Of a DNA stretch of 64,000 nucleotides, positions 1 to 55,770 are shown piece after piece. The DNA is from Heliocybe sulcata (lineage: Eukaryota; Basidiomycota; Agaricomycetes; Gloeophyllales; Gloeophyllaceae). Location: the NCBI GenBank assembly GCA_004369045.1, contig ML213505.1, positions 221,021 through 285,020 of the forward strand, read 5' to 3'. The notes under the pieces were generated by a model. It was not told the DNA's origin and searched no databases. It worked only from the letters and a program-made list of their open reading frames with translations. Made by a program: the position numbers and the translations under genes. Positions within the stretch are counted from its first letter, which is position 1. Every line of letters starts with the position of its first letter.

Positions 1-1357
1 GGATCTTCTACTGAACGCCGTACAGTGTATTGACGATTCGTGCACAGAGGTTGCTGTCAGCTTGAACTCGAACGATGTTACGATCTACTCGCGTCAGGGG
101 AAGGAATGGAATGTTACTGATACCCTTTCTGAGGTGCGTCTCTAATGCTGTCGAGCATCGGACAGAGACTAACGCACGAGGCGGACGTCTGCAGCATGAC
201 AAGCTCATTACGTCCATCGACTGGGCGCCCAACTCCAACCGCATTGTGACTTCCTCCCAAGATCGTAATGCTTACGTCTGGCAGGAGACCCAGGACCCAC
301 AGACGGGGAAGATGGTGTGGAAGCCGACTCTAGTCTTGTTGCGTGTCAACAGGGCGGCGACGTTCGTGCGGTGGAGTCCGAACGAGGACAAGTTCGCTGT
401 TGCTACCGGTGCTAGGTCCGTTCTGCCTTTTCTGACACAAGATGCTGGAAGATGACCGGAATTCAATATGCAGGGCTATTGCCATCTGTTCTTACGACGA
501 GGAGAACAATTGGTGGGTCTCGCGGCACCTGAAGAAGCCCATCCGGTCGACGGTGCTCTCGATTGACTGGCACCCCAACAATGTGCTGCTGGCCGCCGGA
601 AGCGCTGACATGAAGGCGCGCGTCTTCTCCGCTTATATCAAGGACGTGGATTCGAGGCCTCCTCCCTCAGTCTGGGGTGAGAGGCTGCCTTTCAACACCG
701 TCTGCGGCGAATACAGCAGTCCTTCTGGTGGCTGGGTTCATGCGGTCGGGTTCTCCCCGACTGGAGATGTCTTGGCCTTCGCCAGTGAGCATGGATTTCT
801 CGTGCATAAATGCCTTATCTGAAGAATGAATCACAGGTCACGACAGCACCGTCTCCATTGTTTACCCTAGTGGACCGGTCATCTACACGATCAAACTCAA
901 TTCCCTGCCCTACGTCACGTTGACTTGGACGGCCGAGGACTCCCTGGTCGCTGCCGGGCACGACTGCCAGCCCATAGTCTTCTCCGGGAGCGCGGGCGGT
1001 TGGCAGCTCGTCGGAACTCTGGATGACACTAGTACCAGCAAGTCGAATGGCGGGACTCGCGGCTTCGGTGTTGCCGGCTCGCAAGTGGGTCGACTGAATA
1101 GCGCCGCCTTCCATACGTTCCGTCAGGCGGACAGCCGCGGCAGCTCCTCCCCTACGTCTGCGGCTGGGTCGGGCGCCACCGACACGGAGTTGCTGACCGT
1201 GCACCAGAACACTATCACCAGTATTAGGCCGTTCTCGGGTAGCGCGGAGAAGGTCGACCAGGTCAGCACTACAGGTGTTGACGGGAGGTTGGCGATTTGG
1301 GATGTGAATAATGTGGCGGAGCTCACTGGGAAGATGGGAGCTTTGAGACTGCATTAA
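1..1357 (+). CDS. Arp2/3 complex subunit ARPC1 (p41-Arc), WD40 protein, 5' truncated by window edge
   Basis: This WD40 beta-propeller subunit of the Arp2/3 complex nucleates branched actin at endocytic patches and hyphal tips. The reading frame is already open at base 2. Exons read 2-133, 195-415, 474-784 and 837-1357, giving 394 visible residues, close to the full family length, so only a few N-terminal residues are missing. Diagnostic segments are [23 protein letters not shown] (seen as blocks SIDWAPNSN and DRNAYVW), [16 protein letters not shown] and the [11 protein letters not shown] repeat. The third intron (785-836) has a GTGAGC donor inside an apparent open frame and restores the [12 protein letters not shown] block. 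A Ser/Gly-rich insertion near 1040-1180 lengthens the C-terminal region. It converges on DAD3, with 103 bp between stop codons. Identification rests on the family signature; confidence is high. Confidence 0.93.
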
Positions 1358-1460
1358 GAGAGATGTGAACAGGCTGAATGATGTCGACGAACATTGAAGC
1401 AATAAATATATCTTACAGTATGCTCGTGGTGATTGTGGGATGGGATCGAAGTGCTGTTGC

Positions 1461-1932
1461 TTATGGTTGTGCCGTTGTGTCGCCCTCGGATGTAAAAGAA
1501 TCCGATGCCTCATCGGCGGCTGGTTGCTCATTGATGACGCCCCATGCAGACACTTTGAACTATGCGTCGGACGTCAGTACTATTGCGTTCCCAGGTCCAG
1601 GCTGAATGAGCTCACCAATGTCATCACCATGCCCATCTTTCTTTCCAGGACTCTCAGGCGCTCCAGGAGGTCTTGGTCGGGTCCCTCACTAAGCTGTCGC
1701 GTACGGACGATCAGCTGTCGGAGGTCATCAGTACAGCCAACGGTCTCAATCATCAATCGTGAAGCAGCACTGGACAGGAATCATGGATGATAGCAGGGTG
1801 GATACTCACATCTCTGATATTCTGATTCAGCTTGGCGTATTCCCATAAGACGTCAGCTTCGAGCTGTGTGAGACCTGGATGACCATCGTAGGGATTAAGC
1901 TCGTATATCTCAGCAGTTGCTGGGGATGCCAT
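1461..1932 (-). CDS. DAD3: DASH/Dam1 complex subunit Dad3
   Basis: Dad3 is a small subunit of the fungal-specific DASH (Dam1) ring that couples kinetochores to spindle microtubules. Exons on the minus strand are 1810-1932, 1616-1714 and 1461-1559, all phase 0, coding 106 residues (the yeast protein is about 94). The N-terminal half carries the family signature NPYDGHPGLTQLEADVLWEY (residues about 13-32), followed by LLERLRVLERKMGMVMTLF and the WGV motif near the C-terminus, which only appears when the second intron (1560-1615, GTGAGC donor) is removed. The last 25 residues are acidic and unconserved. No continuous open frame spans the gene, so a simple ORF scan misses it. The start is the only ATG ahead of the conserved block. 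The junctions and motif order leave little doubt. Confidence 0.93.
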
Positions 1933-4531
1933 GGCCTATCAATAGGCGGTAGCCAGCGCAGATGACGGTCAGGACGCAATGCAGTCGGAGAGGGCGTGCC
2001 GTGACACGTACTTAGTGTGACAAGTCGCGTGCTGAACGAGCGTCACGTCACGCTTGCTCTTCTGTCTCGGACGCGCGTCTGCAAATTGAGCAGGCTTCGA
2101 ACACGTTTTGATGGGAGTGGGATGCTTCTTGCAAGTTCGTCCCTCGTCTTATTGTCTTCTTATTTTAATCTTGCGCTGCTCTTTCCGTCAATTTGCAAAG
2201 AAAATGAGATGGGTTGGGTGAGATAATAGCGCAGCAGCGAGAGCGACGATCGTTCCATCCGTTCGCTCCATGGCTTGATGCCCGGAATGTGGGCCTAGTA
2301 TAGGTTGGATCTTATTGGTTGGAGGATGGCGATTGTGATTTACTTACTCTCTGGGTAGAGCGATATTGCAGCGTACTTTGTCCAGGCGCCGGGCACTATC
2401 ACTTGCATCTGTCGCGGGAGACCAGACGTCTGGATGAAAGGATCCAGGAATTCAATGCTGGTTCCCCTCACGAATCATCTTGCTTGGTCCGACATTGGTG
2501 CGGCGTAGACCAAACCCCGTATACAAAATCCGTAGAGTCATCCTATGTTCTTCAGCGGCACGGCCTTGCGCCTCAGTTTATTCGACTGGGTCAGGCGCCG
2601 TTCCCAGATACAGTCGACTAGGCGCTGTGCTTCTCCTAGGCTCTATTTGGTGGCTGCTTTCCACTGGTCCAAGTCTCGGCAATTCCAAACATGCAATGGG
2701 ACGCAAGTAACCGGGCATGGGACCGCTTCCATTCAATGTGTTCTCCCGACATTAAATAATTCCCCAACCATCATCCCCAACTCAAGGAAGAGCAGCCCAA
2801 GTTTCGTGGGCCACTGCTTGGAACCCTGCGCCGTTGTCTCTTGCCGTTCAGCGAGAGCCCGCTGCTCGGTCTCGTGTTCCGGAGGTTTTCTCTAGGCAAT
2901 GCTACCCCAATTATTTATTTTGGACTGCTTCCCCCGTCTTCCACTCGATATCTGTGGCCACAGAGTCTTTCAGTCAGGAGCCAGGGATAGTCATACTATA
3001 TGTCTTCTGCAGTCAGGTTATAATGTTCACCTGGCACATACTGCTCGGTGAGCACGCAGTGTTCAATGCCGAACCCTAGGAAACAGAAATAGCATGACCT
3101 CCGCAGAGTTCTCTCAGACTGGCGGTCTTCCCCGGTGCCGAGCTACTTTAACTTCTCCGTCGACGTCAGTGATAACCATATATCGCCGAGCAGCTAGTCA
3201 GGCAGAGCACGGTGGCCGTTAAGCATTCCACCCAGTTATAGCCATACGGTAACGTTATGCATCGTGAGACGGAGATTGACTTTCTTCATTCCATCGGCGC
3301 GACCATCCACAGGGATAGACCGAAACCCAAACCTAGATTATGCTAACGCTGCTGTGGTGGGCCGAACGGATCACGGAGACGTGCCAGTGTCAGATCATTC
3401 CTGGCATGGCACAGCTATAGCCAGCTTCCAAATTCCCGCCTGCAGCTTAGGCGCAAGGTAGACGCCGGTATGTCGCAGTGTGCATACTCCCGACGTCGAT
3501 CTCGGTGACCTGTGACTATGGTGGAATGTATAGTTTGTGTAAGGCTCCAGATCGCACTCACGGGCTTGGTCTCTGTCCTATTTCCATGCATTGGCATGTG
3601 ATGTGCTGTATCCGGACAATTCTGATATCATATTACCTTAGGCTGCAAGCCTATGGCTTTCTCATGAAGACTTGCGCACCTCGACGGTTTTCTGGTAGAG
3701 ACAACAAATTGCTGTAGAATGCAGGATCCATAGGCATCCATACTCTCACAGTATTGGCTGTTTTCATAATAAATCTTCCTTTCGTTATCGAGCACTGCTT
3801 CTCGGAGGCGAAATGGAATACCGACAACAATAATAAGAGCGCGTAAACCCGCCTGCTGTGATCGACGAGTTCATACTGCCTACAATCAGACATCAATACT
3901 AATACCTTGCGACGTTGACATTTCATAGATCTTCACAGGTTGATCCACGGTCGAGATCATTGATACGATATTTCTGAGGATACCTGAGAGAGCCACAGGA
4001 GATGCCTGATACAGGCCGTGACGAGGTCACAGGCAGTGCTTCTCCGCCTGCGCATTCAGCGCTAAGTTACGTTAAGGCCTACGCAGAACAATAACGACGG
4101 TGCTTACAGGCGGTCGCTCTCGGTGGCGACGTCAGGACGGATATAAGCGAAGGTCGGCAGAAATGGCCAGCATGAGGCTCGCGGGTCTGTCACGGGCGTC
4201 GAGACAATAAGAAGATCGAGTTAGGAGGGCGCGGGGCTGCCCTGCTTCGGGTGCGTTCCGAGAGACAATACCACGCCCGTGCACTGCTCCAAGATCCCCC
4301 AAAATGCGTCCAGTGCCGAGCCCAGTCCTATTAAATATTTATGCCACCAGTGCAGCACATCGCTCGCTAACCCGCTGGTTCAGACCCGCCGTCTCCGCAC
4401 GTCCGTCGTAAGAGACACAGCTATACACCCGTCAGTCGTCTGATCGTTGATTCCAGGTCTCCCCAGCGCCGCCCTCCCATTGGACCTGACCTACCAATTT
4501 GGGTGCTGCGAAAGTGCAAGCCAATCGAGCA
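1933..4531. other. Gene-poor stretch upstream of DAD3 and the Clp1-like gene
   Basis: No conserved protein motif or convincing spliced gene was found on either strand. Open frames are short (up to about 116 codons) and show no family signature. An AT-rich block TATTAAATATTTATG near 4330 lies about 200 bp ahead of the Clp1-like start and may be part of its promoter. The region could hold long regulatory sequence for the Clp1-like gene, a non-coding RNA, or degraded mobile-element sequence; nothing seen decides between these. Confidence 0.4.
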
Positions 4532-5697
4532 ATGTCTGGAAACAATAAAGGAGGCCAACCCGCGCCTGTCTTGTCCCATCGTAAAAGCCCGCTCCGGAAG
4601 CCTGCTCTCCGCCTCGGGATACCTCCACCACTGCCCGTCCAACCACCCGCTCAGCCAATGCTCCCTCCGTTCGTTCCTCGGCCTTTCCCGCCGCCCGCTC
4701 TGGAAGACGTTCCTCATGAATACATTATTGATCAACTCCACCGGTTGGCCCCTCGGTACTGGGGTAATATGGAAACAACTGACTGTACACTGAGTGAGTC
4801 TGCATCACGCTGCAGATGGTATTTTAGGAGATTAAACGACATGGTAGTCATCCCGGTCTTCGACCCACCCAAGCTCGACTCGACTGCTCTCCAATCGTCA
4901 GGCCACAGCGGCTACGTCTACTCGAACCCGAATGGTCATGATCCATTAGGGAGACGTGCGACTGAGCCTAATCTAAACGTCGCCCCTCGAATTGTCATGA
5001 AGGTACGTTGCAAGCGCCACTTTGTTCTCAAACCCGATGTTCAACCAGACCACCCCAGTTACACATGGATTACTTGTCGGCGCACTCGACGTTCCTCCGC
5101 GCTCTATTCAGCGGCGCCAACCCTCTCGACCTCATCAACACGACTCTGATGCCTTGCTCTTCACACCCTTCCGCGTCTCATCCCCGACAATCCTGCTCCT
5201 CACCATCACCACCGCCCAGTCCTTCGCCCATCACTCCCATGTCTCCCCTCCAACAACCCTTCTGCCCACGACGCCGCCGCTCACCCTCCTCGTCCCACCA
5301 GCTCCCCTCCCTCCTCCCCTCCTCCCCTCACCACCCGATCGTCTACCTGCCCATCCCCGACCCATCCTCGATCCGCCTCCTCATGCACTTCATGTACTTC
5401 GGCAGAACCGACTACATCGAGGCCTGCCTCGCCCGCGGCGACGTCAGCTGGGACGGCCTCGCCAAGAACGTAGAGTACCTCGGTATACGCGGTATACGTG
5501 GCTGGCTGGCCGCATGGCTAGCCAGGCTCGAGTCCGACGACGAAACGGACACGGACGCCAACCAGATGGATCTGGACGGCGACACGGAAGTGGAAGACTA
5601 CATGTCGGATACCCAAGCGGAATCCCCGAGAGGCCGCGATCCCTCCCCTCGCAGTCTGTCGCGGTCAGGATTGAAAATAAAGAAACTACCTACTTGA
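4532..5697 (+). CDS. Clp1-like protein with a BTB-type fold
   Basis: Exons 4532-4793, 4848-5002 and 5059-5697 encode 351 residues. In mushrooms Clp1 (clampless1, 365 residues in Coprinopsis) is needed for clamp-cell formation downstream of the mating-type homeodomain genes; Ustilago has a homologue. Here an N-terminal Pro-rich tract (PPPLPVQPPAQP) is followed by HRLAPRYWGNMETTDC, DCTLIIPVFDPP across intron 1, and the BTB-like segment MDYLSAHSTFLRALFSGANP in exon 3. A long Ser/Pro insertion precedes IVYLPIPDPSSIRLLMHFMY and NVEYLGIRGIRGWL. The C-terminus is acidic then basic. The first in-frame ATG (4532) was used. The BTB-like character is seen; the Clp1 assignment is from memory of the family's pattern and length and should be treated as probable rather than proven. 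It could simply be another fungal BTB/POZ protein. Confidence 0.65.
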
Positions 5698-43981: not shown

Positions 43982-44769
43982 TTACAATACACTGCCGTCG
44001 TGCGCGCTCACGACTACATCTCTGCCATTGGCGCGTACGGACCGTCGTTGAGGATCTCGGGATAGAGGTTTACGCATGTCTGTACATGAAACCCATTGAG
44101 CTGAAAGTGCAGACCGAGAGAAGAGCTGGTGCACGTACCGAAGGCGTCCTCTTCATCTCTCCCTCCAGGCCCCAGTCCCAAATTCCCATAATACTCCCGT
44201 ACCCTTCGGTAGACGCTATACCCAAGGCCTTCATACATCCCTATCGCAACCTTGTTCATACAGCGGACGTATAGGTCCACGAAGAAGCCCTTGTATGTCT
44301 CGTCTGAGACAAACTCCAGGAGGGCCATCATCTTGCGCCCCAAGGAAAGACGGCGGTACTCCGGAGCGACGGACAGCGCTGTGACGTGTCCGTGCCACTC
44401 CGTACCGGTGCCTTCGGCCTTTCCAAGGACTGTGAGGGGGTAAGATACAATGCGGACTCCCGGGAAAGTAATGAAGGGACGCACCATAGCCCATTAGCCG
44501 GCCGCTGGGTGCTTCTTGCACGCAACAGAGGTCGGGCCACCTCGTCAGGTATTGCAGGTAGAATGAGATGCCATACTGATAGAACTGCTTATGAGCATCG
44601 TTCAATTGCTATGCAGAGCGCACATACCGTCTCAGTCCAAACATCCAAGTTACTGCCGCCGGCGACATCCGTTGTCTCAAAAGAGGTGAAGGATCTGGGA
44701 CTGATGGTAAACTCACATGTTGTTGAACTTGAAGATGTCCGTAGCTCTAAATGGTCGCAGCACGCTCAT
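43982..44769 (-). CDS. NAA20: NatB catalytic subunit, N-alpha-acetyltransferase Naa20 (Nat3/Nat5)
   Basis: Naa20 acetylates protein N-termini beginning Met-Asp/Glu/Asn/Gln, acting at the ribosome with Naa25. Exons are about 44717-44769, 44629-44652, 44485-44575, 44139-44429 and 43982-44079, 185 residues. Conserved parts: MSVLRPFRATDIFKFNN, NLDVWTET, SFYLQYLTRWPDLC, GKAEGTGTEWHGHVTALSVA, the acetyl-CoA loop RRLSLGRKMM, FFVDLYVRCMNKVAIGMYEG, LGYSVYRRVREYY, and the terminal DMRKPLSRDP. Exon 2 is only about 25 nt. The tail after DMRKPLSRD is basic. Length and motif order match yeast Nat3 (195). Its 3' end is nearly fused to that of IML1. Confidence 0.93.
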
Positions 44770-46811: not shown

Positions 46812-48053
46812 TCAGTCTGATAAGTCCATATCCTCGTCGGCGTCAACATTCGACTGGCTATGCACAGTTTGTCCGTCCGAAGCTGGAAGACGTGGCGGTG
46901 GCGGAGGATCCAAGGGAGGGGCTGGTGGTGGTAAGTGCGGCGGAGGAGGTGCTTGCATCTCAGGTGGCGGCAGCGGAGGGGGCAAGCCTGGAGGTGGAGG
47001 TGGAGGGGACAAGCCTGGAGGTGGTGGTGGTGGTGGAGCAGCCTGCTGCGCAAGTATCCGACGCCAAAGGGCATCCCGATCCACGCTGAAGGTGCTTTCA
47101 TTTGACTCCCGACTGATACTGAAGGTCCCTTGGTTGGACTCAGAGGCATCATCCGGAGGGAACAGAGGTGGTAAGGCTGCGCCCTTGTACACGGGTAGGA
47201 GGTCGGAGGAGAAGTAGGTCGGTGGGTAGGTTGCCCAGCGGCTGGGTCCACTTATGGTAAGCGCATCGAGGCTAGGGCTTCTGCCGGATGCCTCTCGGTC
47301 GTCCTCTGCCGCTGACTCTGAAGAGACTTCAGAGGTCTCGTCGTCCTCTCCCTCCGAGGCATGAGCTTCCGCCGTTGATGACTTCCTAGCGCCCAGGTGG
47401 TGCTTGATATCCACCTCCTCCTTCCCACCGTCTCCATAAATGAAGAATGTCTCCTCCTCCCCTTCGTCCTCCTCCCCTTGACGCTCTCCAAGAATTCGCA
47501 TCGCAACGCTCTCCCTCGGATCCTTCGTCCCCACCCACCCCGGCGGGTAACCCCACTCAGCCATATTCCGCAGCCACTCCACCCGATCCCCTTTATCTCC
47601 CTCTTCCAGCCCTAGAGCTTCCCGTAGCATAGCACCTGTCACCTGCCCCGGCTCGAACTCGTCCAACCACCGTAGGCACTGGCTCTTCCAGGCCTCAACC
47701 TCATGAAACCGTCGGGAGGTGTCCAAAGAGGAGGAGTGGTAGAAATTGTACAGTTGGCGAGAGAGGGAGATGAGCTGCCGATCGTGCGGGAGGGGACAGG
47801 CGGAGATGATGTGCTCGGGGGAGCCGCAGTTGAAGCAGCGACTTCGACCATCGTCTGGGGATACTTCATCGGCAGCTCCGAGGATATCATCCGTGTAGCG
47901 TTCATAGTAACAGCCGCTGTCCGTCCACACGCGCCATGACTCTCGTCCTAGTCCAGACGACCACTGCGGGTTAGGGTCGGCGAAGCAGAGCTGGTCCAGA
48001 TTCACTCCCCCTCCCTCTTCGGCTGCAGGGGCAATTTCGTCTCCTGCTCCCAT
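46812..48053 (-). CDS. CCHC zinc-knuckle / PSP-domain-like protein (ZCCHC8-like)
   Basis: One open frame of 413 residues if started at the ATG at 48051-48053. Early on it reads FADPNPQWSSG, then a zinc knuckle CFNCGSPEHIISACPLPHD (C-x2-C-x4-H-x4-C) and a following RQLYNFY and GAMLREALGL-like region with PPGWVG, as in PSP-domain proteins of the NEXT/RNA-surveillance type. The next 150 residues are acidic (GEEDEGEEETFF). The C-terminus has an extreme poly-Pro region (APPPPPPPGLSPPPPPPG) ending MDLSD. The start overlaps the 3' end of the upstream glutaredoxin-like gene by 52 bp in another frame; an upstream non-overlapping first exon cannot be excluded. Confidence 0.8.
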   Translation of the reverse strand: MGAGDEIAPAAEEGGGVNLDQLCFADPNPQWSSGLGRESWRVWTDSGCYYERYTDDILGAADEVSPDDGRSRCFNCGSPEHIISACPLPHDRQLISLSRQLYNFYHSSSLDTSRRFHEVEAWKSQCLRWLDEFEPGQVTGAMLREALGLEEGDKGDRVEWLRNMAEWGYPPGWVGTKDPRESVAMRILGERQGEEDEGEEETFFIYGDGGKEEVDIKHHLGARKSSTAEAHASEGEDDETSEVSSESAAEDDREASGRSPSLDALTISGPSRWATYPPTYFSSDLLPVYKGAALPPLFPPDDASESNQGTFSISRESNESTFSVDRDALWRRILAQQAAPPPPPPPGLSPPPPPPGLPPPLPPPEMQAPPPPHLPPPAPPLDPPPPPRLPASDGQTVHSQSNVDADEDMDLSD

Positions 48054-48416
48054 TTGTCGAGGGCCTGCGTCACCGTCTGCGCGTCCCAGCGACCCTTGGC
48101 GATCTCCTTGCCCTCGAGATGCAGAGCTGGGATCCAGTAGACATATTTCTTCTTCCACTTTTCCTGGCCCGGATCTTGGATGTTGATAATATCCAGTTGG
48201 AAGGGCCGCTGAGCAAAAGACAAGAGTAAGCTATTCACCGAGGCGACTGGTACGGGCTTACTGTCGCTCTGACCTTGGACAGCTCCGCCTTCGCAATCTG
48301 CGTGGTCTTGTCAGCGACGACGATGAGATGAATAGAAGACTTTTTACGTCGCAGAGGGAGCAGTTTGGACCGGAGAAGAGAGTTAGCCTTGCAATGCGCC
48401 CTATGCTGGAGGCCAT
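48002..48416 (-). CDS. Glutared­oxin-like protein (DUF836 / YDR286C-type)
   Basis: Exons 48348-48416, 48262-48297 and 48002-48208 code 103 residues. The N-terminus MASSIGRIARLTLFSGPNCS carries the CxxC-like NCSLCD motif at the tip of a thioredoxin-fold strand. IAKAELSKVRAT spans exon 2, followed by RPFQLDIINIQDPGQEKW, YVYWIPALHLEGKEIAKG and a helix. This matches yeast YDR286C and human C5orf63, small glutaredoxin-like proteins of unknown thiol chemistry, possibly mitochondrial. Phases across both introns fit exactly. The last 17 codons overlap the start of the zinc-knuckle frame on the same strand. Confidence 0.9.
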
Positions 48417-48879
48417 GAACAGCGCTGGAGAGACTTCAACTTTCAGAGCTACCTCGGAAGCTTTTGCTTTCAGGGACGGATCTCAGATGAAATTGCAAGA
48501 AGGACCCTGGACAGCTATATCCCATTATGGTTGAGGGTTGCTCTTTATCAGGTCGTTTGCAGAGATTCATCAATCAAAGTGCAGAATAAAATATGTTATA
48601 AGTTTTGCTACTAGTCTACTGACTCTCCACTGTCGACAGCTACAAGCCTTTCAGTCTTTTGTCCCCATGATTTGTAGCTGTGTTCGAGGTCAGAAATGGC
48701 GATTGGCTTCTGAGATTGGCTTGATCCTGCTCGCGTGGCGAATTTATGTAAATCGGGTGAGGAGGTGCGACGAAGTGGTTGTGCATGTCGACGGAGTTCT
48801 CGAGTCTCATAACTGACGCGACCAACACAACCAGAGGCTTGCCTTTCCTCTGCTAACACCCGTCTTCAATGCCATCCCA
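48417..48879. other. Divergent promoter region, glutaredoxin-like / CCCH-AAA+ genes
   Basis: 460 bp; no conserved coding motif and no clear TATA box. A short plus-strand frame (about 48538-48816) is motif-free. Confidence 0.4.
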
Positions 48880-51800
48880 TGCCCGTTCCCGACCCTCCCT
48901 GGAAAGTACGGAGTAAGTAATCCACCACATTATCTGTACTCCTGTTGCTGACTAGCATGCTGCAGCGCGGCCATGTCCATTTTACTCCCAAGGCCGGTGC
49001 TTGTTTGCTGACTCGTGCAATTATCTGCACGAGGTCAAGATTAGGGCGACCCCAGTCATCACTGCGAAGGAGCTGCAGGAGGCTGGCCGATCGAGCAGCG
49101 ACTCCGCGAGGGAGGGGCCACAGCAAGACATTCTGAAAGAGAACAATGGTCGTCTCATGTCGCCTCCACGGTCTCCGCGTATGCAGAGTCTATTGGCAGC
49201 CTTGGGAGATGCTATAACTCCGGAAGAGCCGGATCCGCTGGAACTTCCAGAAGCTGAGGAGGATGCTCAAGACAGTGTGGTATCTGCTGGAACTACTGTA
49301 CACCCTATGCGGAAGGGGGATGCGGAGAATGTCGTCCTCCAAGTACCTATCGCCAAAGAAGCGCTGGAGAAGGAGGGCATCGCTCCCGTCGATGGCAATA
49401 CCTCGTCGCATGGCCTCGGACTGTCACATCCAATTGCCATCCCGGGCTCGCACGAGGAGAATGTCCAACTACCCGTTCCGGAAGTTAGGGAGGATGGTGA
49501 TCCTTCTGCGGAAGATATCGCTTATTCTGGTCAAGAACCCTTGCATCCTTCACCCATCCAAGAGTCAGGGGTTGAGAGTGTCCTGTTTTCCGCATCTGAA
49601 GAAGATGAAGGAGATCAGGCGGACGTCGAGCGGGATTCTGCTCAAGATACCATCGCCCCACTTGTCCACTCTCTCTCTCATCCCAGTCCCGTCCAAGAGT
49701 CCCTCTTAGCATACACCTCAGATTCCACCTCCTCTCCCTCCCTAGCCTCGCAAAGCGCAGACCACACTCCCTCCCTACCCCCTCATGATCCTTCTCCCTC
49801 GTCATCGTCCCCCCCTCACGCCGACCACCCCTTCGACATGCTCTCCCCAGTGTCCCTCGCTGGCGGCGCGCCCCCTACACCCTTCCCCCTCGACTTCTGC
49901 TCCCTTGAGCGCGCAGACTCGGTCGACTCGGGCTACGCCGACTCTTGGACGGGTCCCACACCTCTCGTCCTATCCCCACCCCGCTCCCCCGGCCCCAGAG
50001 CATCTACGCTGAGTCTGTTGAGCAGCCCATTTGGGACGCCCGCGAGGATATTGAGGAGGGTGAGTGTACAAGGGATTTTGTTGAGTCCTGGGAAGCCCAC
50101 TTTTTCGAATGGGAAGGAGGAGGATGAAGAGGGGGACGGGGAGCCCACGCCCTCTGCGCACGTGGATGGTGACGCGGATGATCTCGACTCCTTGGACTCG
50201 TTCGAGCTGGATGAGGGTCCCGCCTTGGATATGAACGACAAGAGCTCGTCGTTCCCGTCTCCGCAGCGGCAGTACAGCCTTGATTCGCCTGCCGAGGGGT
50301 CGTTTCACCCGTCAGCGCATTCTAGTCTGTCGTCTGGTATCATGGATGCGTACTATGGGTACAATGAAGACCCGCAAGAGGCTAGCGAGTCACGTACGGT
50401 CAAGCCGGGATCTGTGCAGCTCCTTGCGAGGGATGTGGATGCTGCGTCCCCACTACTTTCTGAACCCCTGCCAGACTATGCTGTCGAGTCCCGGGAGAGT
50501 CCTCGCACTGTCCAGTCTCGGCCTGCGAGTCTGTCTACGCCAGCTGCAGATGGAAGTCTGCTGAGCTACGCGGACGAGCTTTCCAGCCCCGCAGCCGAAA
50601 GTGCAAGTGCTCTGGGCTACGCCAACGATCTTTCCACACCCGCAGCCCAAAGTGCGACTGCGCCGAGCTGTGTGGATGAGCTTTCGACGCCAGCAGCAAG
50701 CCCGCTCACCTCCGAGGATGAGTTGGCATCATCTCGCATTGGCTCTGTTTCCCTTTTGTCGTTTCCTCTTCCTCTGCAAGCACCGTCATCGTCACGAGAA
50801 CCATCATCCTCATCGCCGCCACGGCCACTACCACTATCACAGGAATCTCAGCCGACGGACCTGGCGTCCAGTCCGCAAGCCAGGGTTGTCACTCCCTCCA
50901 CTTCTCATTCACCCGTGCGAGTTGTCACTCCTCCCACCGCTCATTCACCCGCTATTCAGGTTCATGCTGTACCCACCACTAATAGTCCCATTCCCTCCCC
51001 ATCGTCAGCTCGTTCACGCTCTTCACTCGTATTGGCCCAGTCCAACGACGGCAGTCAGAATCAGAATCATGAGAATGTTGCTTCTGTCTCTCCGTTGCCG
51101 AGCAAGAAGGTCCCGTTAGCATTTCGGCGGAGACCTGCTTCCGTAAGTCAAGGCTTGCCGAAATTTCAGAGTGTGTGTACTTACGATGTGATGTTGACGG
51201 CGATCTTTTTGTAGATGCAAATTCGCGCTGCTTCGTTCGGTCCGGCTGGTAACTACGAGGCGACAGGAAGTCCGAGTTCCCCCGCCATAGCAACCTCGCG
51301 AAGTTTGGAGCACTCGCGATCGACGTCGCCTGCGTTTTCTGTGGAGGGGTCATCGAAATTGAGGCCCCTGCGTCTTGTGAGTCTTTTACTTGCTGCTTGC
51401 TTTGTGACATTGACGAGGAGCTGACGGGCGGAGCAGTCACGTATTCTTAGTCCTTCGTCGTTTGAGTTTTCAGAGCCTGGTCCGTCTAGTAGACCGTTAT
51501 CTGTGCAGAGTTATAAGGGTGAGTTGCTGATGCTGTTTCTTGCGGTTGTGGGTGTTGTGGTACTGATATCGGTCGTTGTGGAGATTCTATGCACGCACCT
51601 AAATCACCAAGTGTATCATCAGAGCAGTCTATTTCCGATTTGCAATTGGTGGGTGCCACTTCTTCAGCTCAGTCTGCGACTGCGATTGACATGTGTACCT
51701 GCAGCTTTCCTCTGCACGTTCATCATTGATACCCGAAGACATACGCGACATGGTCGCGCGGAACAATCACGCATCACCATCACCATCCACTCACTCTCAC

Positions 51801-53715
51801 TCTAGTAAACCGTATAATGCGCCTCCTCTATCCGCACCTATTAATCGCCCTATTTCTTGGTTAAAATTTTCGCATACCCGGCCGAGCTCCCGGGCGTCTC
51901 TATATGATCAGTCCCCTGCTCGGGCGTTGAGCAGGCTGTCGGAGCCGTCGTGGCACCAGGACGGTGACGAGGCTTCCGACGATGAGGACCACGACCGCTA
52001 TGACCACAGGACTGTCCGCAAAACCCCATCTCCGCTCCCCGGCGCAGCGCCCTCGCGAACCAGACCCGTCTCGTCTATTTTCCATTCTCCGCCTGCCTCC
52101 GCCCTCCCCACCGTATCCTTCAGCTCCCGACGTGCCTCCTCGATCTATCTCCACTCTCCTGTACCTACTCCGAAGCCGACCTTGATGTTCGCGATAGCGT
52201 CAGACGATGTCGATGAGGTAAAGCGGGTGCTGGACAGCGGGGAGGCGGGGCCGAACGAGCAGGTGGGACCGCAGAGTGCACTGGCGTTCGTGTTGACGAA
52301 TGAGAGGTTGAAGAATAAGATTGGGATTGTGAAGGAGCTGTTGAAGCATGGGGCGGATCCAGGGGCGTTGAGGAGTGTGGAGAGTAATCCACCGGAGGTC
52401 GGGGGTGGGGAGGAGGAAGAGGAAGAGGTTGTGATGTTGAGTCCACCGCGGGAGACGACGTTGGAGGGGATGGATCCGGCTACAAGGTGGACATCAGTGT
52501 TTCTGGTTATTTTGGACTCTTATGGATTTGGGTTGGTTTGTGTTGCAGGTATTACATTTCGATGGCCGATAATACGGACACGCGCCGTGCTTCAGCGCTC
52601 ATTCATCGCTCGTTCTTTCGGCCGCTGGCGAGGGTACGGTACGACATCATCGGCCAGGATCGGGCATTGGAACAGCTGTTTCGAGTGTTGAGTATGAACT
52701 CCCAGTCGTTCTCTGTGGCACCATTGGTGGTACTCCTTTGCGGTTAGGCGTGTTTTGGTTTTGTCAATTTTGGGACTGGGTTGCTGATTGTGATATAGGA
52801 CCGAGTGGTCACGGCAAGAGTCTGCTGGCGAGGAAATGTGAGTGCAATCAGACTTAATCTGGTGAGATATATGGACTCACTGCTCTCGTAGTCGGGTCGC
52901 TCCTCGAAGTTCCAACCCATACCGTCAATATGACTACACTACGGTCAACACATGACATATGGCAGTCACATTCCATGAACCCTTATGAGGTATCCTCTAT
53001 CATTCATCTGACCCGATGGATGTGCTGATGATAAATTAGGAGCCGTCAAGTTCTACTCTAGCGGAATTCTTGATTGACAATGAAAGGAAGCGCTGCGTCG
53101 TCGTCCTTGATGTACGTGCAATCGGACGATATATGGGGTTAATGGCTGCTGATAGTACTTATCTTACAGGAGATAGACAAGACGGAAGATGAGAAGTTCC
53201 TCTTGTCTCTGCTCATGCCTTGGGAACTAGGTCGGTGTTCTCCTGAGGCTGGGCGCCGCCACATCGACGTCCGGAAGGTCATATGGATCGGGACGTCAAA
53301 CATCGGACACGACCTAGTGTTTGCTCACGAAGCAGAGAGAGCTGCCCCATATTCCAAGCTGTCGCGAGACGAGTATGTCGAGCTTATGAAGCAGTTACGG
53401 CCGGTCGTTTCGGATCGCCTGGGTGTAAGCATCTTCTACTTTGACCCTAAATCGCCTCTAACTGACTTGACTACACAGCCATCTCTCATTTCTCGAGTTA
53501 CGACAGTGCTTCCATTTGTACCTTTCACGGAGGACGAGAAGATGGCTATCGCGGCGGAGGCGCTTTTCACACTTGGGAAAGACATCATTCAGTCGCTTAC
53601 GCCCGAGACTGTCGAGGGTCTGATTCGGAGAGCTTTGGAAGACTATCTGTCGGATGAGGGTGCAAGATGCTTGTATAGGAGTGTATCTACTTTGCTATTG
53701 GATTTACCCATGTGA
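48880..53715 (+). CDS. CCCH zinc finger - ankyrin - Clp/HSP100-type AAA+ ATPase
   Basis: Exons: 48880-48913, 48966-51142, 51215-51376, 51437-51518, 51584-51648, 51705-52486, 52549-52742, 52799-52837, 52892-52989, 53040-53111, 53170-53424 and 53479-53715, all phases consistent, 1398 residues. Residues about 12-36 form a CCCH finger (RPCPFYSQGRC, then LFADSCNYLH). A long disordered Ser/Pro/Asp region (about 60-980) follows with imperfect SYADELSSPAA repeats. Ankyrin-like helices (FAIASDDVDEVKRVLDSG, IVKELLKHGADPGAL) cover about 998-1060. The AAA+ module has RYDIIGQDRALEQLF, Walker A GPSGHGKS (about 1166), Walker B CVVVLDEIDK (about 1233), sensor-like WIGTSNIG and EGARCLYRSVSTLLLD at the end. 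ANK-plus-Clp pairing resembles animal Skd3/CLPB, but that is mitochondrial and lacks CCCH. An exit beyond 53715 by further splicing is possible. Confidence 0.82.
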
Positions 53716-55076: not shown

Positions 55077-55770
55077 ATGATGTTCAAGCTCTCCATCCCC
55101 GCCGTTCTCGTTGCCCTCGCTGGCTATGCTCTCGCTCAGGAGTCTCACACAGTCTCCGTATGCTGCTCTTTGTTCTATCCTCCATATTGCGGCAGATACT
55201 AACATACTTCTTCATCCTCCGTGATAGATGACCAACAACTGCGGCTCTGGCAACCCCGTTTTTCTCTACCAGGGCCACCCTAACCCCCAGGGCCCTGGGA
55301 CCGTCAGCGGACAGCTCCTCGGCGGTATCGCCTGGCTCAACGGATACTCTGGCGCTAACTGTCTGAGCTCTGGCGTCAACTGCGGCGCCGTTGAGTTCAC
55401 CCTCCGTAACGACTCCCCTAACCAGAACGCCGCGGACTTCACTCTGGAGCCTCAGCCCGAGAACGGTAACCACCGCTTGTACGTGTCATCTGTGATATTC
55501 GCAAACATAAGCAGGTTGATTGTTGAATAACATCTTTTGTAGCACATACCCGATGTCGTTCAGCTACACTGGCGGCGGGGCTTGCAATGGCCTCTCCGAC
55601 CACTGCTCGTCCGCTGGCAACTGCCCGAGCGCGTTTACTCAGCCTACCAACGGCCGGCCTCTTCAATGTCTCGGTGGAAATGCCGGAGTGAGTATTTCTT
55701 ACTTGATATTCGCTCTTGGAATCTTGGACTAAGCCTTTCCGGTGCCCAGATCCACATCCAGTTCTGTTAA
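55077..55770 (+). CDS. Small secreted cysteine-rich 'glycopeptide'-type protein
   Basis: Exons 55077-55157, 55228-55478, 55543-55687 and 55750-55770 give 165 residues. A signal peptide MMFKLSIPAVLVALAGYALA is cleaved before QESHTVS. The mature part has eight Cys (in NNCGSG, ANCLSS, VNCGAV, GACNGL, DHCSS, GNCPSA, LQCLGG and the final QFC), enough for four disulfides, and a thaumatin-like rhythm of short beta strands (VEFTLRNDSPNQNAADFTL, PMSFSYTGGGACNG). Similar Agaricomycete proteins are annotated as glycopeptides; their role is unknown, with secretion during growth on substrate or fruiting suggested. A TATA box and pyrimidine-rich leader suggest strong expression. Start is the first of two tandem ATGs. 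Confidence 0.85.

Follow-up and report, generated by a model that had tools for sequence, protein, structure and literature searches.

The 64,000-nucleotide window analysed here (Heliocybe sulcata, GenBank assembly GCA_004369045.1, contig ML213505.1, positions 221,021 to 285,020 of the forward strand) contains a gene of 12 exons whose product is, judged by its motifs and profile matches, a variant of the HSP100/Clp kind of AAA+ ATPase: the features of the nucleotide site are present, and the Gly-Tyr-Val-Gly (GYVG) signature of pore loop 1 is, on alignment, gone from the module. In front of the ATPase the gene model places a CCCH zinc finger, a linker rich in serine and proline and an ankyrin-like unit, and this domain order within a single gene model, taken as architecture alone, is very probably correct. 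Coordinates of all parts, numbered from the first letter of the window, are collected in Table 1.

The 12 exons join in frame into a translation of 1398 residues with no internal stop, in agreement with an earlier interpretation made from the letters alone (the sequence-only reading), which had described 12 exons running without a phase break from a CCCH finger to an AAA+ module with a C-terminus at about residue 1398. All 11 introns have GT-AG borders and lengths of 50–72 nt, the predicted median for the genome being 54 nt; introns so short and dense fit a basidiomycete. Under a splice model fitted to this genome, seven of the 11 receive scores above zero, with introns 4, 6, 7 and 9 at −0.5 to −1.6. 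Coding signal is best in the frame of the gene model in 10 of 12 exons when the three forward frames are compared (the exceptions are exons 1 and 7), and in eight of 12 when all six frames are. A donor at 52692 for the exon 7/8 junction was rejected, as it spoils the Walker A motif, which then reads RPSGHGKS; with the donor at 52743 the motif becomes CGPSGHGKS and the protein has 1398 residues. Intron 11 (53425–53478) is 54 nt long, in frame and free of stops; if retained, it would lengthen the stretch from sensor 1 to the arginine-finger candidate by 18 residues.

The ATPase module carries the motifs GPSGHGKS, VVLDEIDK, TSN, LISRV and GARCLYR. With the full-length protein, the Pfam families AAA_5 (41.7 bits, cut-off 22), AAA_2 (40.9 bits, cut-off 27) and AAA (32.1 bits, cut-off 21.2) are all found above their cut-offs, and the best PDB matches of the module include ClpB and Skd3/CLPB. 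NCBIfam models covering the second nucleotide-binding domain (NBD2) score 50.3 bits for ClpV1, 41.5 for ClpA and 35.4 for ClpB, all far below the equivalog cut-offs; nine PHROGs families match, the best being an ATP-dependent protease family (46.2 bits) and several others clamp loaders. The module was aligned with the NBD2 of ClpB, of Skd3 and of three predicted proteins from the same genome, to which the names Hsp104, Hsp78-like and (second) Hsp104-like were assigned from sequence features. Walker A, Walker B, sensor 1 and an arginine-finger candidate, so named by alignment only (LISRV opposite FINRI, LLNRL, FLNRI and FLNRL), fall into matching columns, as does GAR, compared with the three proteins of this genome only, since the aligned parts of ClpB and Skd3 stop before it. 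Identity of the module to these NBD2s is 21.3–27.6% over 192–272 columns, against 34.3–61.1% among the others. The ATPase active site looks intact on its aligned columns, and the Walker A/B module of AAA_2 type proposed by the sequence-only reading is borne out. Its Clp-like C-terminus is borne out in part: the GAR motif is there, and PF10431 (ClpB_D2-small) is undetected, with no family at E ≤ 10 in the 80-residue C-terminus and none of the four matches of an own-genome PF10431 search lying in this gene. Because neither GYVG nor PF10431 was found, the protein is not called a member of ClpB or Skd3.

Own-genome searches (31.6 Mb, 51 contigs), which score only the best candidates, gave seven AAA matches, six at this locus and one distant one elsewhere (C8) that we take to be a proteasome Rpt-like AAA protein. 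Exon-6 DNA and the ankyrin search each found this locus only, and the CCCH search gave six matches, one of them this locus and five weak ones elsewhere. The gene thus apparently occurs as a single copy in this genome. The AAA region also matched four viral and 54 prokaryote contig stretches, none confirmed as a relative, in collections that are not fungal and with a query that finds close relatives only. The second Hsp104-like gene (G000:C9:1121500-1128500, predicted at 1005–4835) reads GPSGTRKT at its second Walker A, with Arg replacing the Gly before Lys, and is possibly a degenerate paralogue.

At pore loop 1, GYVG is present in all five compared NBD2s, and the window protein reads PYEE (within NPYEEP). 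Translation of intron 9 in the frame of the preceding exon reaches a stop without GYVG, and no contiguous GYVG-coding DNA was found in the window. In Skd3, the exchange Y430A abolishes disaggregase activity and reduces ATPase activity, which is nevertheless kept (PMC7343390). Since Skd3 needs its pore tyrosine to disaggregate, according to the same paper, the disaggregase-like ATPase of the sequence-only reading is weakened. Weighing against a complete loss of the grip is the ambiguity of the alignment itself: MAFFT and phmmer both open a four-residue gap at GYVG, and ungapped counting gives 11 residues from the conserved His to Tyr and 25 from Tyr to the Walker B Asp, versus 12 and 24 in the others (for the Hsp78-like protein the His-side values are 15 and 39, an earlier His having been taken). 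By this count the Tyr lies one residue off the pore Tyr, and an aromatic grip may therefore survive. On this spacing, a true threading disaggregase or unfoldase would use the PYEE Tyr as pore loop 1 and work like Skd3, the finger recruiting it to ribonucleoproteins (RNPs); the retained ATPase motifs and the position of the ankyrin unit ahead of a single nucleotide-binding domain, as in Skd3, would fit. It is nonetheless unlikely, with Gly-Tyr-Val-Gly changed to Pro-Tyr-Glu-Glu in the face of an otherwise uniform signature, PF10431 undetected in the C-terminus and identity to the compared NBD2s in the twenties of per cent.

The N-terminal finger has the spacing C15-x7-C23-x5-C29-x3-H33, which agrees with the pattern C-x7/8-C-x5-C-x3-H. 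When the N-terminal 56 residues are scanned in isolation, three CCCH families of Pfam exceed their cut-offs (23.0, 25.4 and 29.1). A PDB search with the finger returned 24 sequences at E ≤ 10, 22 of which are CCCH proteins, by name or known as such, and two glutaredoxins; the best are KIAA1064 (3.1e-4) and ZGPAT (0.0014), with tristetraprolin and Yth1/CPSF4 among the first. Several points weigh against an RNA-binding finger. In the full-length scan the CCCH families stay below cut-off (PF00642 17.1 against 20.5, PF18044 19.7 against 24.6, PF18345 22.7 against 29); a gene finder written for this analysis favours an intron at 48997–49044, by 1.5 nats, at the loss of half the finger; and a lone CCCH finger may be a weak RNA binder or have protein as its ligand. 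The 48-nt stretch in question is in frame; its donor is weak, a branch motif is present and the acceptor is AG. Splicing it out could possibly act as a switch between isoforms with and without the finger.

Residues 998–1062 are likely to be ankyrin in identity, although weakly so and with about two repeats. Ankyrin families are the sole kind that Pfam finds in the isolated piece, and a PDB search with 84 residues returned 139 sequences at E ≤ 10, the best 60 of which are nearly all ankyrin or DARPin proteins by name or, like tankyrase and RNase L, known as ankyrin proteins; a few names (RBL4, RBL7_C2_3, ‘Engineered Protein’, OR266, D2-R3) are uninformative. The best match, tankyrase-1, has an E value of 6.9e-6 for the whole multi-repeat chain, a value accumulated over several weak stretches of which none reaches E ≤ 10 alone. 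The ankyrin part of Skd3 aligns at the corresponding place with only 0.5–1.4 bits. Two scans count against the assignment: no ankyrin family appears at E ≤ 1 in the full-length Pfam scan, and the isolated piece remains below cut-off (PF00023 16.6 and 17.2, against 21.1). The finger, ankyrin and AAA_2 combination named by the sequence-only reading is thus recovered unevenly by domain search in one protein, with AAA_2 over its cut-off, CCCH over it only as an isolated piece and ankyrin below it.

The linker between finger and ankyrin unit comprises 945 residues with 19.4% Ser and 12.6% Pro. It holds 47 [ST]P sites (shuffled mean 27.8; reached in none of 2,000 shuffles) and 24 Rxx[ST] sites (shuffled mean 12.1; reached in one of 2,000); Sxx[DE] shows no enrichment, with 19 sites versus 23.4 in shuffles. 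On account of the two enrichments the linker is read as phospho-regulated, which these candidate sites suggest. The repeats of SYADELSSPAA type that had been noticed are there, as a 51-nt array at 50563–50697 with 2.6 copies and 73% matches. Composition agrees with the disorder that had been proposed alongside them; counting against it, of 18 linker windows only 10 have a charge-hydropathy index below zero, the side of disorder. Condensate behaviour finds no computed support: the linker has few aromatic residues (1.9% F, 1.7% Y) and one K/R triplet.

Taken together, these parts would make a switch for assembly or remodelling that is tethered to RNA or a partner and driven by ATP, a combined statement to which we give an even chance. 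The CCCH finger would hold the protein on RNA or an RNP; the linker, with its many candidate phosphorylation sites, would form a kinase-controlled spacer; the ankyrin unit may dock a partner or set the oligomeric state, as it does in Skd3; and the AAA+ module would bind ATP, assemble and hydrolyse ATP. With the GYVG grip gone, a non-threading mode is favoured, and the ATPase cycle more probably powers assembly and disassembly, or the remodelling of a partner, than processive threading. We infer the remodelling switch from three precedents: Skd3 Y430A; the torsins, related to HSP100 but devoid of aromatic pore loops, for which processive substrate translocation was judged unlikely (PMC5425593); and CLPB, whose oligomeric state is determined by its ankyrin part (PMC9934407). 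The divergence of the module, its lost GYVG and the enriched phospho-site candidates would also suit an AAA+ module that serves as a structural or regulatory ATP-binding scaffold, with the finger as effector in a phospho-regulated RNA-binding or RNA-decay factor; this is improbable, however, as the DE of Walker B, the Asn of sensor 1, the arginine-finger candidate and the sensor-2 Arg, all required for hydrolysis, are retained. Returning to the ATP-driven switch, its extension to a fungal class is tentative and rather doubtful: such a class would consist of RNA-tethered, phospho-regulated HSP100 derivatives, with ankyrin and Clp NBD2 fused outside Holozoa, GYVG lost and, unlike torsins, an arginine finger of their own, acting as RNP remodelling switches.

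Whether finger and ATPase belong to one gene was assessed with the gene finder, which had been trained on a 200-kb portion of this genome with 30 seed open reading frames (the final training round gave 61 predicted genes with 392 introns). Blind to the gene model, it predicted one gene from 48879 through the linker, the ankyrin region and the ATPase exons, with nine of the 11 introns in common. It differs in using other introns instead of 6 and 7, in an extra C-terminal intron by which it reads past the stop to 53899, and in the added in-frame 48-nt intron that leaves the protein half a finger. These deviating introns were rejected by judgement because residues supported by Pfam or PDB matches are lost or, at the C-terminus, the homologous end is replaced. 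An intergenic point forced at 32 places (every 100 nt, 49100–52200) costs 6.6 to 30.0 nats, with the cheapest breaks (6.6–7.9 nats) at 51200 and 51500–51700. Forced breaks inside five other genes predicted in the same genome cost 0.4 to 36.1 nats, with minima of 10.5 nats for Hsp104 and 0.4–2.3 nats for the other four; except for the Clp genes with clear homology, these yardstick genes are themselves predictions by the same finder. The single gene is within the range of other genes, its weakest stretch (51200–51700) lying under Hsp104 and above the other four, and the one predicted protein of the sequence-only reading stands on both the unprompted prediction and the break costs. Two adjacent genes, a CCCH/linker protein with its frame open to 51214 and an ankyrin–AAA+ protein starting near 51215, are very improbable: an ATG at the 51215 acceptor, the weak coding signal of exons 3–5 and the cheapest breaks, below the Hsp104 minimum, speak for them, yet the halves are only 72 nt apart (intron 2, whose donor reads GTAAGT and whose acceptor reads TTTTTGTAG), the break costs exceed the minima of the four other predicted genes and Ser/Pro-rich sequence lies on both sides of intron 2.

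Table 1. Features of the gene, with positions in the window.
Feature	Positions	Strand	Basis
Whole gene (coding span), 12 exons, 1398 residues	48879..53715	+	Gene model; one-gene prediction by finder trained on same genome
Exons 1–6	48879-48912, 48966-51142, 51215-51376, 51437-51518, 51584-51648, 51705-52486	+	Gene model
Exons 7–12	52549-52742, 52799-52837, 52892-52989, 53040-53111, 53170-53424, 53479-53715	+	Gene model
CCCH finger, residues 15–33	48974..49030	+	Gene model; Pfam as isolated N-terminal piece; PDB search
Ser/Pro-rich linker, residues 46–990, exons 2–6, includes 51-nt repeat	49067..52154	+	Composition; repeat search
Ankyrin-like unit, about two repeats (likely), residues 998–1062	52176..52370	+	Sub-cut-off Pfam; PDB search; weak Skd3 ankyrin alignment
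Single HSP100/Clp NBD2-type AAA+ module, residues ~1130–1398, exons 7–12	52634..53715	+	Pfam; PDB; alignment
Pore-loop-1 region NPYE / intron 9 / EP instead of GYVG, residues 1208–1213	52978..53045	+	Gene model; alignment

Among neighbouring frames, a 472-residue open frame with a proline-rich tail lies upstream of the gene on the minus strand (46815–48230) and carries a zinc knuckle of CCHC type (PF00098 at 21.5 bits against a cut-off of 20.8). Another minus-strand open frame (44017–44493) matches a GNAT acetyltransferase (PF00583, 31.8 bits, cut-off 20.7). A small protein is predicted at 55077–55732, with a signal-like N-terminus by eye and no Pfam family at E ≤ 0.01. A sigma-70 promoter scan of the window was set aside as not meaningful for a fungus.

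In the spacing and similarity of its finger, the window protein resembles ZGPAT, CPSF4/Yth1 and tristetraprolin; we know of no such CCCH protein with a Clp-type module, no architecture database having been searched, and no description of a CCCH–ankyrin–Clp protein was found in the open-licence literature searched. The finger would connect the HSP100/Clp family to RNA. Torsins share with the window protein a single HSP100-related module and are described as having no aromatic pore loops, a point on which the Tyr of the window protein is ambiguous; they differ in lacking an arginine finger, for which the window protein has its candidate LISRV, and reside in the endoplasmic reticulum and perinuclear space (PMC5425593). 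No torsin is among the 33 PDB sequences found at E ≤ 0.1 for the AAA+ module. The NBD2 of ClpB, Hsp104 and Hsp78 has Walker A, Walker B, sensor 1 TSN and the arginine-finger candidate in common with the module, and GAR matches in the three own-genome proteins; unlike these, the window protein has only one nucleotide-binding domain, no GYVG and no detected PF10431. The separate Hsp104, Hsp78-like and Hsp104-like genes of the same genome each have GYVG. A Clp module that lacks GYVG while its active site looks intact would allow a direct test of HSP100 ATPase work without threading.

The closest parallel in layout is Skd3/CLPB (ANKCLP) of animals and choanoflagellates, in which ankyrin repeats are likewise followed by one HSP100 NBD2-type AAA+ module. 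As the sequence-only reading had anticipated, the window protein differs from ordinary Skd3: GYVG is missing, the CCCH finger and the ~945-residue linker stand in front, the N-terminus is this finger with no mitochondrial presequence visible by eye, and there are about two weak ankyrin repeats, whereas Skd3 has four (PMC7343390). The cytosolic or nuclear location proposed by the sequence-only reading is conjectural. By per cent identity, the nucleotide-binding domain of the window protein is no closer to that of Skd3 (24.9% identity, 205 columns) than to ClpB (27.6%) or the second Hsp104-like protein of the same genome (24.9%). Erives and Fassler place the ankyrin–Clp fusion in the stem-holozoan lineage, the basidiomycetes named there being Cryptococcus neoformans and Puccinia graminis (PMC4339202). 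Ankyrin repeats joined to one Clp module in a fungus, beside Hsp104 and Hsp78-like genes, would, if true, point to an older or an independent origin of this fusion.

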